Source of the DNA: Bittarella massiliensis (ex Durand et al. 2017)
Lineage (GTDB): Bacteria; Bacillota; Clostridia; Oscillospirales; Ruminococcaceae
Length of the DNA: 64,000 nt
NCBI RefSeq assembly: GCF_001486165.1
Contig: NZ_LN908976.1
Location: 248,071 to 312,070, forward strand
Reading direction: 5' to 3'
The notes under the pieces were generated by a model. The model was given only the letters and a program-made list of their open reading frames with translations, had not been told where the DNA came from and ran no database searches. Both the position numbers and the translations under genes were made by a program. Position 1 is the stretch's first letter; each line of letters opens with the position of its first letter. Shown here one piece after another: positions 8,612 to 41,549 of the stretch.

Positions 8612-8680
8612 GACGGTTCTTATGGAAGATTCGTGGTAGAACCCCTCGAGCGCGGCTATGGGATCACCCTGGGCAACAGC
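8612..8680 (+). pseudogene. rpoA N-terminal fragment (23 codons)
   Basis: Plus-strand translation reads [23 protein letters not shown], the highly conserved start of bacterial RNA polymerase alpha (normally continuing LRR.LLSSLPG). Homology stops after LGNS; the next bases belong to the antisense cyclase gene. It is too short to be functional and is joined directly to the phosphatase-like fragment. Confidence 0.75.
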
Positions 8681-10229
8681 CGGCGGCGGGGTCATAATAG
8701 GGCTGCAGGTCCACCCGGTCGAGAAGGGCGGGCGCCGCCGGCCCGTCGGGGAGACCGGCAGCCACCCCGGGGGCCGTCCAGACGTGCAGGGGGGCCTCCC
8801 CCTTCCAGACAAAGTAGGTGCGGTGGGCGCCCAGGGCGTCCCCCAGGTCGGCCAGCACCCGGCGCACCCCCTCCTCCGGGGCGGGGGCGGCCGTCGCCCG
8901 CTCCAGCAGCCGCCCCAGGCAGAGGGGGCAGCCGACCTCCCCTCCCCCGCCCTCGCCCAGGGCGGGGGCAGGGGCCCCGGCGGCCATCCGATAGCGGTCC
9001 TTCCCCGCCCGCTTGGCCTCGTACATGGCCCGGTCGGCAGCGGCAAAGAGGGCCTCGTAACTGGCGCCGTCCCGGGGCCAGAGGGCGACGCCGATGCTCC
9101 CCCGCACCGAGAGGCCCCGGCGGGAGGGAAGCTCCTGTTCCAGCAGTTGGCAGAGGCGCTCCACCGTCTCCCCCACCACCGGCGCGGCGGCGTCCTTCAT
9201 AAAGACCACAAACTCGTCGCCCCCTACCCGGCCCACGATGTCGGTGGCGCGAAAGTTGGTCCGCAGCCGGGCGCTGACCTCGGTGAGGACCGCGTCGCCA
9301 AACTGGTGGCCGTAGCGGTCGTTGACCCCCTTGAAGTCGTCCAGGTCAATGAGCAGCAGGGCGCCGGAGCTGCCCCGGCAGGGGCCTTGCAGGTAGCCGT
9401 CCACCGCCTCGGCGGTGGAGAGCTTGTTGTAGAGCCTTGTCATGGGGTCGCGGCAGCAGCGGGAGCGCAGCTTCTGGGTCTCCTTTTTGTGGGCGCTGAT
9501 GTCCCGCAGCACCCCCAGCACACAGCTGCGGCCCCCCGGGCCCTCCACCGGCGCGCCGGAGGCCGAAAACCAGCCCCCCTCGTGGCCGGGGAAGGCCCGC
9601 CCTTCCAGCCGCACCTCGGCCGGGCCGGCGCTCTTCCCCCGGCAGATGGCGGCAAAGTCCGCCGTCCCGGGGCAGCCGCTCCCTTCCAGGGCGGCCAGGT
9701 AGCCCTCCGCCCGCCAGATGCCGCCCCCCGCCCGGCCGGGGCGGCGGTCGCAGAAGGTCATCACATCCTCTGCCCCGTCGTACTCAAAGGCCAGCCCGTC
9801 GGTGCAGCGCAGCAGCACCTGACGCCGCTCCCGCTCCCCCTCCAGCTCCCGCTGCATCTGCCGCCAGCGGCCGATGTCCAGGCAGAAAAACCGCCAGCGG
9901 TGCGGGGCCTCCAGCACCCCGCACCAGCGCAGCCAGCGCAACTGGCCCGCCGGGGTGTAGCAGGGAAAGTCGGCCTGCACCCGCCCCGCCCGCCGGGCCC
10001 GCGCCAGTTTGCGGGCGGCCAGCCGCCGCCCCTGGGCCCCCAGGAAAAACCAGGGGTCTCCCCCCTGGGTGCGGGCAAAGAGCTCCGGCGTGCAGTCCAG
10101 CAGGGCCAGAAATCCGCCGTCGGGCGACCAGTGGGGTTTGGCCTGTCCCAGCTGCAGTCGGACCAGTCCCCCCTTGACCCCCCGAGCCGCCGCCGCCAGC
10201 AGCGCCTCGCCGCTCATCCTCTCGTTCAC
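8664..10229 (-). CDS. PAS-GGDEF diguanylate cyclase with truncated C-terminal GAF domain
   Basis: 521 residues from the GTG at 10229 (GGGGGAG upstream). N-terminal PAS-like region, a second PAS at about 200-300 ending in [14 protein letters not shown], then GGDEF. The active site GRVGGDEF is intact near residue 338, the metal Asp is present (LLIDLDDFK), and an RxxD inhibitory site (RATD) lies five residues before GGDEF, so a feedback-inhibited active cyclase is expected. The end ([16 protein letters not shown]...) is the first half of a GAF domain that runs into foreign sequence and stops. Cyclase activity may survive. Confidence 0.85.
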
Positions 10230-10418
10230 CAAATCTCCCCCTTTTGCTGTGAACGCCCAATTGGGTCTCCTTCCCAATATAGTCAGGGGAGCTGTAAAAA
10301 AATGGCGTTTTTTGTCCCCCCAGTACCCCTGTGCAGGGGACGGCAGAGGGACGGCGCCAGCCCTTTCGCCGTCCCCCGGGGGCGGGGGCGGCCCTTTCCC
10401 CTCCGCGGCGGCCCTGGC

Positions 10419-10459
10419 GGCGGGAAAAAGGGGGATAAAAAGCCCCCCTTTTTCCCGCC
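10419..10459. repeat. Long GC/AT inverted repeat in the nrdG-cyclase gap
   Basis: A roughly 16-bp stem (10419-10434 with about 10443-10459) around an AT loop, in the 330-bp space between the cyclase start and nrdG. A CCCAATTGGG palindrome lies at 10257-10266 near a TATATT box for the cyclase. A 17-bp word (GGCAGAGGGACGGCGCC) here recurs near 20746. No gene is seen. Confidence 0.45.
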
Positions 10460-10506
10460 CGCCGCCCCGCGTTTCCCCCTGGCCGGGCGGGAAGAGACGG
10501 CAAAAA

Positions 10507-10538
10507 GGCGCGGGAGAGCGTTGCCGCTCTCCCGCGCC
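10507..10538 (-). terminator. Terminator of nrdD-nrdG
   Basis: 14-bp perfect stem with a 4-base loop (10507-10520 with 10525-10538), followed by TTTTTG on the minus strand, 26 bases beyond the nrdG stop. Confidence 0.8.
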
Positions 10539-10563
10539 GGGGCCGCATATCAAACAGGTTTCT

Positions 10564-11253
10564 CTAAAAGGTGAGGCCGGGCTGGACGGCCCGGAGCTGG
10601 GGCTCCACCGCCCGCACCTGCTCGGGGGTGAGGAAGGGGCGCTCCAGCAGGGGGAGGTGCCGCTGCCGGGCACAGGCGGGGGTGCGAAAGAAGTTGAGCC
10701 GGTAGCGAGGCAGCGGGGGCAGCTGCCCCGCCAACTCCACCAGCGCCCCGGCGGTGAGCCCGGGGTAGAGGGTGGTCCGCGCCTCGCAGGGGACCCCCTT
10801 TTCGGCCAGCCGGCAGAGGGTCTCGCGGGTGGCGTCGTACCCCTGTTCGGGGGGGACGCCGCACACCTGGAGGTACTGCTGGCGGGGGGCCTTCCAGTCG
10901 ATGGCCAGGTAGTCGCAGAGCCCCGCCTCCACCAGGGCCAGCACCCGCTGGGTCTGGCGGCCGTTGGTGTCCAGTTTGACCCGGTAGCCCATGGCCTTGA
11001 GGGCGGCCAAAAACCCCTCCAGATCGGGCTGGAGCAGCGGTTCCCCGCCGCTGACCACCACCCCGTCCAGCAGCCCCCGGCGCTTTTTCAAAAAGGCCTC
11101 CACCTCCCCTTCGGGCAGGCAGTCGCCGGGGCCCAACAGGTCGCGGTTGTGGCAGTAAAAGCAGTCGGTGTCGCAGCCGCGGGTGAAGAGGACGCAGGCC
11201 AGCACCCCGGGAAAGTCGATGGTGCTGGTGCGCTGGATGCCGGCGACCTTCAC
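10564..11253 (-). CDS. nrdG: Anaerobic ribonucleotide reductase activating protein (radical SAM)
   Basis: 229 residues. It cleaves S-adenosylmethionine with a [4Fe-4S] cluster to place the glycyl radical on NrdD. The cluster motif CDTDCFYC (Cx3Cx2C) is at about residues 26-33, followed by VVSGGEPLLQ. The GTG start at 11253 overlaps the nrdD stop by four bases (GTGA), which indicates translational coupling. Co-transcribed with nrdD and therefore under the same cobalamin riboswitch. Confidence 0.92.
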   Translation of the reverse strand: MKVAGIQRTSTIDFPGVLACVLFTRGCDTDCFYCHNRDLLGPGDCLPEGEVEAFLKKRRGLLDGVVVSGGEPLLQPDLEGFLAALKAMGYRVKLDTNGRQTQRVLALVEAGLCDYLAIDWKAPRQQYLQVCGVPPEQGYDATRETLCRLAEKGVPCEARTTLYPGLTAGALVELAGQLPPLPRYRLNFFRTPACARQRHLPLLERPFLTPEQVRAVEPQLRAVQPGLTF

Positions 11254-13352
11254 TGGGCGGCCGCCTCGGAGAGTTCGCCCTCTTTGATGACGTACTTGAC
11301 CCGCTGGCGGTACTCCTCCTTCTTTCCCTTGTGGAAGTTCTGCACCGGGCGGAGGTAGCCCACCACCCGGCTCCACACCTCGGTGGCGGCGCCGCAGTCG
11401 GGGCAGCTGTACACCTCGCCGCTGATGTAGCCGTGCTCGGGGCAGACCGAGAAGGTGGGGGTCAGGGAGAGGTAGGGCAGCTTGTAGTTGGTAAAGGCCT
11501 TTTGCAGCAGGGCCTTGGCCACCTCGATGTCCCGGATCTGCTCGCCCAGGTAGAGGTGGAGCACCGTGCCGCCGGTGTACATGCACTGCAGGTCGTCCTG
11601 CAGGTCGAGGGTCTCGAAGATGTCGTCGGTGTAGCCCACCGGCAGCTGGGTGGAGTTGGTGTAGTAGGGCACCTCCTCCCCGGCGGTGAGGATGTCGGGG
11701 TAGCGGTCCCGGTCGAGCTGGGCCAGGCGGTAGCTGGTCCCCTCGGCGGGGGTGGCCTCCAGGTTGTAGACGTGGCCGGTCTCCTCCTGGAAGCGGGTGA
11801 TGACCTCCCGCATGTGGCCCAGCACCCGCAGGGCGAACTGCTGCCCCTCGGGGGCGGTGATCTCGCAGCCCAGGAAGTTGCGGCAGGCCTCGTTCATCCC
11901 CACCAGGCCGATGGTGTTGAAGTGGTTGAACCAGTAGGAGCCGGTGCGGGCCTTGACCTCTTTGAGGTAGTGGGCCGAGTAGGGGTACATCCCATTTTCG
12001 GTCTGCTTTTCAATGGTCTTGCGCTTGATTTCCAGGCTGTTCTTGGCCAGTTCCAGCAGCCCGTCCAGCCGCCGCATCAGGTCCTCCTCGTCCTGGGCCA
12101 GGTAGCACAGCCGGGGCAGGTTGAGGGTGACCACCCCGATGGAGCCGGTCATGGGGTTGGAGCCGAAGAGGCCGCCGCCCCGCTTGCGCAGCTCGCTGGT
12201 GTCAAGGCGCAGCCGGCAGCACATGGAGAGGGCGTCCTCGGGGGAGAGGTCGGAGTTGATGTAGTTGGAGAAGTAGGGGATGCCGTACTTGCAGGTGATC
12301 TCCATGAATTTGTCCACCACCGGGCTCTGCCAGTCAAACTCCTTGGTGACGTTGATGGTGGGGATGGGGAAGGTGAAGACCCGGCCGTGGCGGTCCCCCT
12401 CCATCATCACGTCGCAGAAGGCGGTGTTGAGCAGGTCCATCTCGGCCTGAAAGTCGCCGTAGCAGGCGTCCATGGGCTGGCCGCCGATGACCACGCACTC
12501 GTCCTTGAGGGTGGAGGGGACCACGATGTCGAAGGTCAGGTTGGAGAAGGGGCACTGAAAGCCCACCCGGGTGGGGACGTTGAGGTTGAAGATGAACTCC
12601 TGCAGCGCCTGTTTCACCGCGGCGTAGTCCATGTGGTCGTAGCGGATGAAGGGGGCGCAGTAGGTGTCAAAGGAGGACCAGGCCTGGGCGCCGGCCGACT
12701 CGCCCTGGGTGGTGAAGGTGGAGTTGACGATCTGCCCCAAAAAGGAGCGCAGGTGCTTGGCCGGGCCGCTCTCCACCTTGCCGGGCACCCCGCCAAAGCC
12801 CTGCATCAGCAGCTGGCGCAGGTCCCACCCGGCGCAGTAGGGGCCGAAAAAGCCCAGGTCGTGCAGGTGCAGGTCCCCCGAGGTGTGGGCGCGGCGGATC
12901 TCCTCGGGATAGATCTCGTGGAGCCAGTACTGCTTGGTAAAGGCCTCGCGGATGTAGTTGTTCATCCCGTTGATGGACTTTTGGGTGTTGGCGTTCTCCT
13001 GGATCTTCCAGTCCATGTCGTCCAGGTACTGGGAGAACATGTCGATGGTGGCGCCGATGAGGGCGTTGGCCTCCCGGGCGCCCTGGCGCTTCTCCCGGTA
13101 GAGGATGTAGGCCTTGGCGGTGCGGGCGTGGCGGTTTTCGATGAGGACCTTTTCCACCATGTCCTGCACCTCCTCCACGTCCAGCACGCCGGTGCGGGAC
13201 GTGGCCATCTCCACCACCTGGCGGGAGAGCTCCTCCGCCCGATGCCAGTCGTCTCCCCCCACGGCGGCGGCCGCCTTGAAGATGGCCCAGGTGATTTTCT
13301 CCGGATCAAAGGGGACAATGTCCCCGCTGCGCTTGCGAATCGATTCGATCAT
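11250..13352 (-). CDS. nrdD: Anaerobic ribonucleoside-triphosphate reductase (class III)
   Basis: 700 residues, normal for the family. It makes deoxyribonucleotides without oxygen or B12. N-terminal ATP-cone (residues 1-95: IRKRSGDIVPFDPEKITWAI), the ten-stranded barrel with GLFGSNPMTGSIGVVTLNLP, a C-terminal zinc site (CPEHG...CPDCG) and the glycyl-radical motif RVVGYLRPVQNFHKGKK with the Gly near 664. The ATG at 13352 follows GGGAGGACACAATACG. Preceded by a terminator and a cobalamin riboswitch. Confidence 0.95.
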   Translation of the reverse strand: MIESIRKRSGDIVPFDPEKITWAIFKAAAAVGGDDWHRAEELSRQVVEMATSRTGVLDVEEVQDMVEKVLIENRHARTAKAYILYREKRQGAREANALIGATIDMFSQYLDDMDWKIQENANTQKSINGMNNYIREAFTKQYWLHEIYPEEIRRAHTSGDLHLHDLGFFGPYCAGWDLRQLLMQGFGGVPGKVESGPAKHLRSFLGQIVNSTFTTQGESAGAQAWSSFDTYCAPFIRYDHMDYAAVKQALQEFIFNLNVPTRVGFQCPFSNLTFDIVVPSTLKDECVVIGGQPMDACYGDFQAEMDLLNTAFCDVMMEGDRHGRVFTFPIPTINVTKEFDWQSPVVDKFMEITCKYGIPYFSNYINSDLSPEDALSMCCRLRLDTSELRKRGGGLFGSNPMTGSIGVVTLNLPRLCYLAQDEEDLMRRLDGLLELAKNSLEIKRKTIEKQTENGMYPYSAHYLKEVKARTGSYWFNHFNTIGLVGMNEACRNFLGCEITAPEGQQFALRVLGHMREVITRFQEETGHVYNLEATPAEGTSYRLAQLDRDRYPDILTAGEEVPYYTNSTQLPVGYTDDIFETLDLQDDLQCMYTGGTVLHLYLGEQIRDIEVAKALLQKAFTNYKLPYLSLTPTFSVCPEHGYISGEVYSCPDCGAATEVWSRVVGYLRPVQNFHKGKKEEYRQRVKYVIKEGELSEAAAQ

Positions 13353-13411
13353 CGTATTGTGTCCTCCCATCAAAGTGGTTTCAGAAAACCGCTGGAGACG
13401 CCCAGAGCGCT

Positions 13412-13445
13412 GAAAAGCCCCTGCCGGCCAAAGGCAGGCAGGGGC
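13412..13445 (-). terminator. Attenuator terminator downstream of the B12 riboswitch
   Basis: Stem GCCCCTGCC/GGCAGGGGC (13417-13425 with 13437-13445), followed on the minus strand by TTTTC. It lies between the aptamer and nrdD, where a ligand-stabilised terminator would sit. Confidence 0.75.
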
Positions 13446-13473
13446 GCGACAAAAGTCACTCACCAGAGCCCGC

Positions 13474-13676
13474 TTGACGCCATACACCGTGGCAGCGCGC
13501 GCACAGCGGGCAGGTATTCCGGCTCGGATTCCACGCGCGCCCCGCCTTCCCAGCTCCCGGGGGAACCAGTGGCAGTTGGGGCGCGCTCTCTCCTTACGGC
13601 GGCGGGACCGCGCGGGCTTTTCACCCGTCTTCCCTGTTGCCGCCCGGCCCGATGACAGGCCGGGCACCCGTGTGCT
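13474..13676 (-). promoter_or_regulatory. Cobalamin riboswitch controlling nrdDG
   Basis: Minus-strand leader with the conserved blocks of the B12 aptamer in order: AACAGGGAAGACGGGTG (about 13620-13640), CGGTCCCGCC with GTAAGG (13590-13610), the B12 box GCCACTGG (about 13566-13573), GGGAAGGC (about 13543-13551), and GAATCCGAGCC / GGAATACCTGCC (13509-13532). A GC hairpin opens the element. A terminator and then nrdD follow. High B12 should switch off this B12-independent reductase. The boundaries are approximate. Confidence 0.88.
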
Positions 13677-13929
13677 TTCGTTTCCATATCTAGTTTTGAT
13701 TCTGAAACAGATTGGTCAAATCATACTACATCTTGTGCACCCAGTCAACCGTCATTTCGCCGATATTGCGGCGAAAGAGTGCCACAACAGGCGTATTTTG
13801 AGAGGGGGTCCGAAGCGCCGAGGCGCATGGAGAAGCCCTCGGCGGGGTTTGGGCAGAGCGTCGGGGGGAAGGCCCATTTCGCCCCGCCCCAACCAGGGAG
13901 CGGACGCGTCCCTCCCACAGGAGCGCCGG

Positions 13930-14232
13930 GTGGACCTTCCACCCGGCGGCAAAGGGACAACGGGCACAGAGGTCGGGCGGGCCGTCAGATGACAGGAGGG
14001 GCCACTGCCCGCAACCGAAAGGCCGGAGGGACCCGTCGGCCTTTGGCAGCACTTTCCCTTTCGCGCCTCCCACAAAAGGAGACGGACACCCGTCCCCGTT
14101 CCTCCGGCCTTTTTGACAGAGACGTCCGCCGCCCCCTGCCGGGAAACGAGCCCCCCTTCCCGGCGGCGACAGGGGACCGAGCCGCAGCCGACCCCTCTCC
14201 CCTCTCCGGGGCGAAAGGTTCCCTACTTCAGA
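13930..14232. repeat. Intergenic repeat, copy A
   Basis: About 300 bp closely similar to copy B at 14269-14553 in the same orientation. A block near 14011-14090 matches 14351-14430 almost base for base. No open frame shows gene-like conservation; changes between copies include length differences that are not multiples of three. It may be a dispersed repeat of this lineage. Confidence 0.6.
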
Positions 14233-14268: not shown

Positions 14269-14553
14269 TGGAGGTCCTCCCGGCGAAAAAGGGGAAACGG
14301 GCGCAGGGGCCGGGTGGGCTGCCAGATGACAGGAGGCGCTGCCCGCAACCGAAAGGGCCGGAGGGACCCGTCGGCCTTTGGCAGCACTTTCCCTTTCGCG
14401 CCTCCCACAAAAGGAGACGGACACCTGCCCCACTCCTCCGGCCCTCTTGAAAGAGAAGGTCGCCGCCCTCTGCCGGGAAGCGAGCCCCCCTTCCCGGCGG
14501 CGACAGGGGACCGGGCCGCAACCGCCCCGCTCCCCCGGGGAGAGAGGGGCACT
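14269..14553. repeat. Intergenic repeat, copy B
   Basis: Second copy of the 13930-14232 element, about 340 bp downstream, ending at the stop codon of the Mbeg1-like gene. Small inverted repeats such as the CCTTCCCGGCGGCGACAGGGG region recur in both copies. Confidence 0.6.
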
Positions 14554-15678
14554 CTACTCCAGACGCCGCTCCCCGCCCTCGCTCCGGGGGCGGGCAGGGC
14601 GGAGGTTCTCCCGCGCCGAGCGAAAGAGGCCGCCCATCACCTGGCCCATCAGGCGGCGGGTGTCCTCGTCCACATTTTTGAGGGACTGCAGCACCGCCCC
14701 GGCGCTGTGCAGCCAGTCGCCGGAGAGCTCGCCCACCGTCTTGGCCTGGGTGCCGGCCAGCAGCTGGTAGAGGGTGTCGAAGAAGGTGGCCCGCTCCTCC
14801 CTGTTCATCCCGGCCACCCAGTCCTTGAGGGTCTTGTCGATGAACTTGCTGCTGGCGCTCACCTCGTCGAGGCAGACAAAGCCGGGGCCCTTCACCTCCC
14901 AGGAGTAGAGGTCGTGCTGCATCAGCCCCACCTGGCTGCTGTGGACCACCGTGTAGGCCTCCTCGTGTTCCAGAAGCATCCCCACCACCGAGGACTGGGG
15001 CAGGTAGGTGTGCACCCGCTCCCGCACCGCCCGGTAGCCCGGGCCGTCCAGCACCCCGCCGTCAAAGCCGGGGCCGTCGTTGTTCTGCACCCAGAGCAGC
15101 CGCTCCTGCACCGGGGCCGGGGCGAAGGCGGCGGCGTAGACCGCCAGGTTGCCCCCCTTGGAGTGGCCTCCCACCCGCCAGCTCGCCGGCCCCCGCTCCA
15201 CCGCTCGGCAGAGGTAGGAGACCGCCTCCCTTTGGGCGGGCACCGGGGTGGCAAAACCCATGTTGAAGTCCTCCTTCCAGCCCACCAGGGTGTTGTCGGT
15301 CCCCCGGAAGGCGGCAAAGCCGGTGCCGTCGCCGGGCAGGGCGCAGAGGGCGGAAAACTGCTTTTGCTCGTCGGCGTCCACGTCGTTGACGTAGCCCAAA
15401 AGGGGCATCTCGCCAAAGCGGGCACTGGCGGCCAGGGCCCGCAGCAGGTCGCGGTCGCGCGCCCACATGGCCTCTGTCTGGCGGGCAAAGGCCGGGGAGA
15501 GGAGCCGTTCCGCCGCCCGGCGCAGGGAAATCGCTCCCCCCTCCCCCGGCGGGGGGACCACCCCGTCAAAGGGGACATAGGACAGCCGGCAGAGGATGAG
15601 ATCGTCCACGCAGGTAAAGGGCGCCTGGTCAAAGCGCAGGTCGCCCCGCCATTCCAGATAGTCAAAGATGTTGGCCAC
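14554..15678 (-). CDS. Mbeg1-like protein (DUF2974), alpha/beta-hydrolase fold
   Basis: 374 residues from a GTG start behind GGAGGAGG. N-terminus NIFDYLEWRG and FAAFRGTDNTLVGWKEDFNM are family hallmarks. The nucleophile elbow GGHSKGGNLA (GxSxG) lies near residue 170, then WVQNNDGPGFDG. The C-terminal 70 residues are helical. This is lipase-like but the substrate is unknown, and it appears cytosolic because there is no signal peptide. Confidence 0.85.
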   Translation of the reverse strand: MANIFDYLEWRGDLRFDQAPFTCVDDLILCRLSYVPFDGVVPPPGEGGAISLRRAAERLLSPAFARQTEAMWARDRDLLRALAASARFGEMPLLGYVNDVDADEQKQFSALCALPGDGTGFAAFRGTDNTLVGWKEDFNMGFATPVPAQREAVSYLCRAVERGPASWRVGGHSKGGNLAVYAAAFAPAPVQERLLWVQNNDGPGFDGGVLDGPGYRAVRERVHTYLPQSSVVGMLLEHEEAYTVVHSSQVGLMQHDLYSWEVKGPGFVCLDEVSASSKFIDKTLKDWVAGMNREERATFFDTLYQLLAGTQAKTVGELSGDWLHSAGAVLQSLKNVDEDTRRLMGQVMGGLFRSARENLRPARPRSEGGERRLE

Positions 15679-41432: not shown

Positions 41433-41549
41433 TTGAATTGTCGGCCCACCCAGCCTAATGAATACCCCGCGTGCTGAACGTAAGGCTTCGACTGGGCAGG
41501 CATAATCTTCCGGCTACTTTTTAGTCTCCGTCGGTGGGGAGACAATCTC

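Follow-up and report, generated by a model that had tools for sequence, protein, structure and literature searches.

The nrdDG locus and its leader

The window analysed here is the whole stretch of 64,000 nucleotides from contig NZ_LN908976.1 of Bittarella massiliensis, presumably a gut anaerobe, whose source genome has a size of 2.8 Mb and is 99% complete. The minus strand of the window carries nrdD, the gene of a class III ribonucleotide reductase, followed by nrdG, the gene of its activase, and the leader in front of the two genes is the subject of this work. As shown by computational analysis, the leader contains a cobalamin riboswitch aptamer and a terminator hairpin, and the B12-dependent class II reductase NrdJ is encoded elsewhere in the same genome. 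The features of the locus are listed in Table 1.

A sequence-only reading of the window had described positions 13412-13676 as a B12 riboswitch with an intrinsic terminator in front of a class III ribonucleotide reductase gene. The interval takes in nearly all of the aptamer and the terminator, and the strand, absent from that reading, is the minus strand. The description was borne out in its riboswitch, its terminator and its gene. The Rfam Cobalamin model (RF00174), a search with which had been suggested as a check, was matched over its full length (model positions 1-189) at 13683-13492, and the score of 85.2 bits (E-value 1.4e-19) was far over the gathering cut-off of 31.5. The product of the gene downstream matched NCBIfam NF006126 with 1042.9 bits (cut-off 548) and TIGR02487 with 538.5 bits (cut-off 326.35). 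nrdG overlaps nrdD by 4 bases, and the adjacent class III NrdD and NrdG activase passed all family cut-offs.

The expression platform of the riboswitch includes a terminator hairpin placed between the aptamer and nrdD. This hairpin (GCCCCUGCC...GGCAGGGGC, then UUUU) has 9 pairs and a fold energy of -25.0 kcal/mol. Shuffling the leader 200 times never produced an equal hairpin, and the 46-base stretch around it gave z = -4.38. One stem pair, U-A in the window, is C-G at another B. massiliensis locus (L007, see below), where both sides are changed. The hairpin ends 44 bases upstream of the ribosome-binding site, which lies outside it.

A sigma-70-type promoter was predicted upstream of the aptamer. 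When both strands of 4.2 kb were scanned, 3 sites of this type were seen vs 0.2 expected from shuffles. Judged from the predicted promoter, transcription would start near 13713. Two sites at the promoter resembled NrdR boxes, scored against an assumed NrdR-box consensus, and the pair score was reached by 0 of 300 shuffles.

Table 1. Features of the nrdDG locus in window coordinates, in the order of transcription.
Feature	Position	Strand	Basis or remark
Predicted sigma-70-type promoter, TTGACT-17-TATGAT	13720-13748	-	consensus scan, 10/12 matches
NrdR-box-like site 1	13723-13738	-	12/16 positions, all 8 core; overlaps -10 element
NrdR-box-like site 2, weak	13681-13696	-	10/16 positions; 42 bases from site 1
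Cobalamin riboswitch aptamer (RF00174)	13492-13683	-	covariance model, 85.2 bits
Loop L5, UCCCG	13603-13607	-	Rfam alignment; identical to consensus L5 quoted in PMC10653944
P13-L13 hairpin, expression platform	13468-13500	-	loop CGGUGUA 13489-13483; its CGG could pair with L5 CCG
Candidate antiterminator, GCGGGC (13473-13468) with GCCUGC (13439-13434)	13434-13473	-	weakly supported
Terminator-like hairpin plus U4	13413-13445	-	fold energy, shuffles
Shine-Dalgarno-like GGGAGGA 5' of nrdD	13362-13368	-	direct sequence reading
nrdD, class III ribonucleotide reductase, 700 amino acids, ATP cone and NRDD domain	11250-13352	-	ATG at 13352
nrdG, radical-SAM activase (NrdG2), 229 amino acids, GTG start	10564-11253	-	TIGR02495 159.4 bits, cut-off 131.15

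Riboswitch leaders in other genomes and the presence of NrdJ

We compared 80 nrdD loci from named genomes, 4 of which had less than 400 bases upstream. The Rfam scan covered eight of them (L007, L008, L012, L056, L068, L070, L009 and L015), and the other 72 were screened by motif patterns alone, which can miss aptamers. An aptamer was found upstream of nrdD by the motif screen in 6/80 loci, and all six were confirmed by Rfam: B. massiliensis L007, Angelakisella massiliensis L008, Oscillospiraceae genome L012, Christensenella sp. L056, Eubacteriaceae genome L068 and Peptococcaceae genome L070. Two further riboswitch-nrdD leaders, G010 (= L117) and G057 (= L118), came from the family sample described below, in which G106 is apparently a second entry of the L008 record, the place of NrdJ being identical. 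The comparison set consisted of nine leaders, that of the window and eight others with the same layout and with aptamers over the cut-off. Compared with the window, the NrdD of B. massiliensis L007 is 98% identical and its leader 97%.

A terminator-like hairpin was located between the aptamer and the start codon in 9/9 leaders, and the hairpins of the other leaders had U-rich tails. The leader stretches used were 92-243 bases long, those of L117 and L118 including some codons, and within them the hairpin was matched by 0 of 200 shuffles in seven of the nine leaders, by 1/200 in L008 and by 16/200 in L118. In these stretches, a hairpin at -10 kcal/mol or better was present in 8/9 riboswitch leaders, vs 8/71 riboswitch-less nrdD loci searched within 160 bases; L014, L027 and L078, with less than 160 bases upstream, had been dropped from these controls, which also served for the NrdR boxes (see below).

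The genome of the window encodes a single protein of the class I/II catalytic family. This protein, on contig 7, is the class II NrdJ whose presence elsewhere in the genome the sequence-only reading had predicted, as matches to NF006417 (1190.2 bits, cut-off 961) and TIGR02504 (738.6 bits, cut-off 399.95) confirmed. One NrdD was counted and a class I small subunit was not found in this genome, in which NrdDG and NrdJ were the only ribonucleotide reductases found; NrdDG has its B12-dependent partner enzyme in the same genome. The 8 kb stretch carrying nrdJ contained no Rfam riboswitch.

The co-occurrence of the two enzymes was followed in a family sample of 118 genomes, for which a completeness of at least 90% was requested. 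NrdD was present in 115/118, NrdJ over the cut-off in 28 and both in 27; among the 115, G052 has a fragment match only, and 12 genomes with TIGR02504 below the cut-off were counted as NrdJ-less. Riboswitches were scanned with stricter filters, losing weak matches, and their positions were paired with those of nrdD by eye. Among the matches listed, a riboswitch stood directly 5' of nrdD on the same strand in 4/27 genomes with NrdJ and NrdD vs 0/88 with NrdD only (one-sided Fisher p 0.0025, kinship of the genomes uncorrected). The four genomes (G000, G106, G010 and G057) represent four genera, and G021, congeneric with G106, has no NrdJ and no riboswitch at nrdD. A second set comprised 21 chosen, non-random genomes, with 15 of the 16 'no riboswitch' labels taken from the motif screen; here riboswitch-nrdD leaders occurred in 5/12 NrdJ genomes vs 0/9 without NrdJ (p 0.039), one of the five being the G106 record again. 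NrdJ was present in all eight searched genomes with riboswitch-nrdD, the genome of the window included and that of L007 left out. None of the compared genomes showed the riboswitch at nrdD without also having NrdJ, which fits the isozyme logic advanced in the sequence-only reading.

All 9 leaders carry two NrdR-box-like sites on or close to the promoter, and the pair score was reached by 0 to 3 of 300 shuffles. We initially read these boxes as peculiar to riboswitch loci. Under a looser criterion (reached by no more than 1 in 40 shuffles), however, 62/71 riboswitch-less nrdD loci had a comparable pair, and the pairs are therefore regarded as a general nrdD feature. A pair was also detected near the nrdJ of the same genome (0/300 shuffles; one site 14/16, the other weak). 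The genome contains an NrdR gene. With the box-like pair at its promoter, nrdDG is probably under NrdR control at initiation and under B12 control at termination.

Predicted mode of control and its alternatives

We consider it highly probable that the nrdDG operon is controlled by a repressing, transcription-terminating cobalamin riboswitch. With plentiful corrinoid cofactor, the aptamer would bind it, L5 would form a kissing interaction with L13, and P13 would be held; the terminator would then form and leave nrdDG untranscribed, and B12-dependent NrdJ would supply the deoxynucleotides. With B12 in short supply, P13 would be released, an antiterminator would form instead and NrdDG would be made. 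It is because the cell also has B12-dependent NrdJ that nrdDG is probably shut off when B12 is plentiful, and the cell may thus choose NrdDG or NrdJ by B12 supply.

We infer the kissing loop and the regulatory sign by analogy with a riboswitch that has identical bases in L5 and L13 and for which mutants have been published. In the repressing metE riboswitch of Priestia megaterium, L5 is UCCCG and the kissing-loop bases CCG (L5) and CGG (L13) were proven by mutation (PMC10653944). The nrdD leader shares with it the L5 sequence, the CCG and CGG bases, and a P13 followed by a separate terminator. L13 CGG together with L5 CCG was seen by eye in 7/9 leaders, a match of three bases, which carries little weight as proof; L118 has another complementary L13/L5 pair (GUGAG with CUCAC), and L056 has two bases only. 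The P. megaterium riboswitch differs in that it controls a methionine synthase gene, metE, and in that its antiterminator is backed by mutants (PMC10653944). The candidate antiterminator of the window gave -24.9 kcal/mol vs -23.2 kcal/mol for the P13 state, the two values referring to different stretches, and the exact antiterminator given in Table 1 is a guess. Further candidate pairings seen by eye were those of the aptamer P7 strand with the terminator arm and of the P1 strand with AGCGGG.

Several observations weigh against the repressing, terminating riboswitch. Between the 3' side of P13 and the antiterminator strand that would pair with the 5' arm of the terminator, 5, 5, 5, 4, 2 and 2 bases are shared in the window, L007, L008, L012, L068 and L117, respectively. 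This overlap was no better than chance, as it was equalled in 85, 68, 161, 192, 223 and 234 of 300 spacer shuffles in the same order, and it was discounted as evidence because shuffled spacers do as well. There was no overlap in L056, L070 and L118, and in L012 P13 was by far the more stable of the two structures, at -22.8 kcal/mol vs -11.6 kcal/mol for the antiterminator. Among the matches listed, 23/27 NrdJ genomes of the family sample had no nrdD riboswitch, and the genomes compared are related, so that they are not independent samples. In the window itself, the U-tract of the terminator is short, with four U, and the hairpin at 13445-13413 escapes a strict terminator scan, which asks for 5 T in 8.

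The last two points would suit a hairpin that is not a functional terminator, in a leader where ligand control acts on translation. The chance of this appears small: the hairpin is far more stable than its shuffles, it stops 44 bases short of the ribosome-binding site and excludes it, and terminator-like hairpins followed by U-rich tails recur at this place in the other leaders. A somewhat smaller chance is left to an aptamer that is a decayed remnant, with nrdDG governed by NrdR at the promoter alone. The NrdR gene and the box-like pair would allow this, as would the similar pairs at 62 of the 71 riboswitch-less loci (looser test), but a remnant would hardly be expected to match RF00174 over its full length and far over the cut-off, to be kept in B. 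massiliensis L007, where a pair of the terminator stem has changed on both sides, and to have counterparts over the cut-off at 8 other nrdD genes. The least probable alternative is that B12 binding turns nrdDG on, as happens at cobT of Alkalihalobacillus halodurans, whose corrinoid riboswitch is an activating one (PMC10653944), a possibility to which the unsettled antiterminator of the nrdD leader lends some room, but in cobT P13 itself overlaps the terminator and serves as the antiterminator, and switching on a B12-independent enzyme by B12 would have no evident use beside NrdJ. The window has P13 at 13500-13468 and the terminator at 13445-13413, and the ON switch was set aside because the two do not overlap. 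That they lie apart, like those of the repressing riboswitch, speaks for an OFF switch.

Flanking features, B12 supply and known systems

Other features were observed in the window outside the nrdDG operon. Shortly downstream of nrdG is an open reading frame (ORF) resembling a GGDEF-domain diguanylate cyclase (8664-10673, minus strand, 134.6 bits), the true start of which is probably later, given that the frame opens within the end of nrdG. Upstream of the leader, an Mbeg1-like protein is encoded at 14554-15678 on the minus strand (PF11187, 258.9 bits). A 120-base intergenic sequence is present in two copies that are 93% identical (13990-14110 and 14327-14443), both upstream of the nrdD promoter, and a search of the same genome matched those two copies only. 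A DUF3800-VIII RNA (RF03075, 50.6 bits, cut-off 40.2) was found at 41440-41505 on the minus strand, just upstream of prophage-packaging-like genes on the same strand. These genes were named by eye as HNH-like (41015-40713), a small ORF (40597-40259) and terminase-like (40266-38620). The ORF at 42358-41888, on the other flank of the RNA, had no Pfam match.

CbiD and CobS had no match in the genome, and de novo B12 synthesis is for this reason unlikely; B12 is probably salvaged by this bacterium. The genome contains three cobalamin riboswitches including that of the nrdD leader. The second lies 5' of the gene for an 842-amino-acid protein that matched no family, after which comes one for a 450-amino-acid protein with DUF4430 (L120, 2126-4654 and 783-2135, respectively), and the third lies 5' of the gene for a protein of 1455 amino acids that contains bacterial Ig and PQQ-like repeats (L121, 2919-7286). 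By eye, the 842- and 1455-amino-acid proteins looked secreted. The proteins behind these two riboswitches may be candidates for B12 capture.

A B12 riboswitch before nrdDG is already known from other bacteria, and the principle was published in 2004 or earlier (PMC545781). B12-elements precede NrdDG in Desulfovibrio vulgaris and Desulfuromonas, in which NrdJ is present, and B12 repression was proposed there with earlier cases cited (Genome Biology 2004, PMC545781). The cobalamin riboswitch before class III reductase genes and the presence of NrdJ are shared with B. massiliensis, whereas those delta-proteobacteria are shown with B12 synthesis genes and the genome studied here gave no match for CbiD or CobS. 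In the transcriptome of Propionibacterium acnes, published in 2013, cobalamin riboswitches were annotated at nrdAB and nrdDG, beside nrdRJ (PMC3848588). The riboswitch before nrdDG, NrdJ and nrd-boxes at reductase operons are shared features; P. acnes also has the class I enzyme NrdAB, in contrast to the two reductases found here. The rule invoked by the sequence-only reading, that B12 riboswitches repress a B12-independent enzyme where a B12-dependent isozyme exists, is in print for nrdDG (PMC545781, PMC3848588). Akkermansia has NrdDG beside NrdJ, and the available text makes no riboswitch claim for it (PMC7733943). In a paper on corrinoid selectivity, such riboswitches were argued to fit the needs of the B12-dependent isozyme (PMC9600662). 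Our literature search, with most subscription papers outside its coverage, showed no publication on the nrdDG leader of this organism among the papers listed.

We stop just short of calling probable a wider picture of this B12-salvaging anaerobe with two ribonucleotide reductases. Its whole B12 regulon may consist of three transcripts, two for putative B12-capture surface proteins and one for nrdDG, and the B12 released by neighbours might directly decide which radical chemistry is used for DNA precursors, with NrdR acting on both nrdD and nrdJ as a further layer. The locus would be a clear case of enzyme choice by cofactor among Clostridia-type bacteria, and would provide a testable link between microbial B12 exchange and DNA precursor synthesis.
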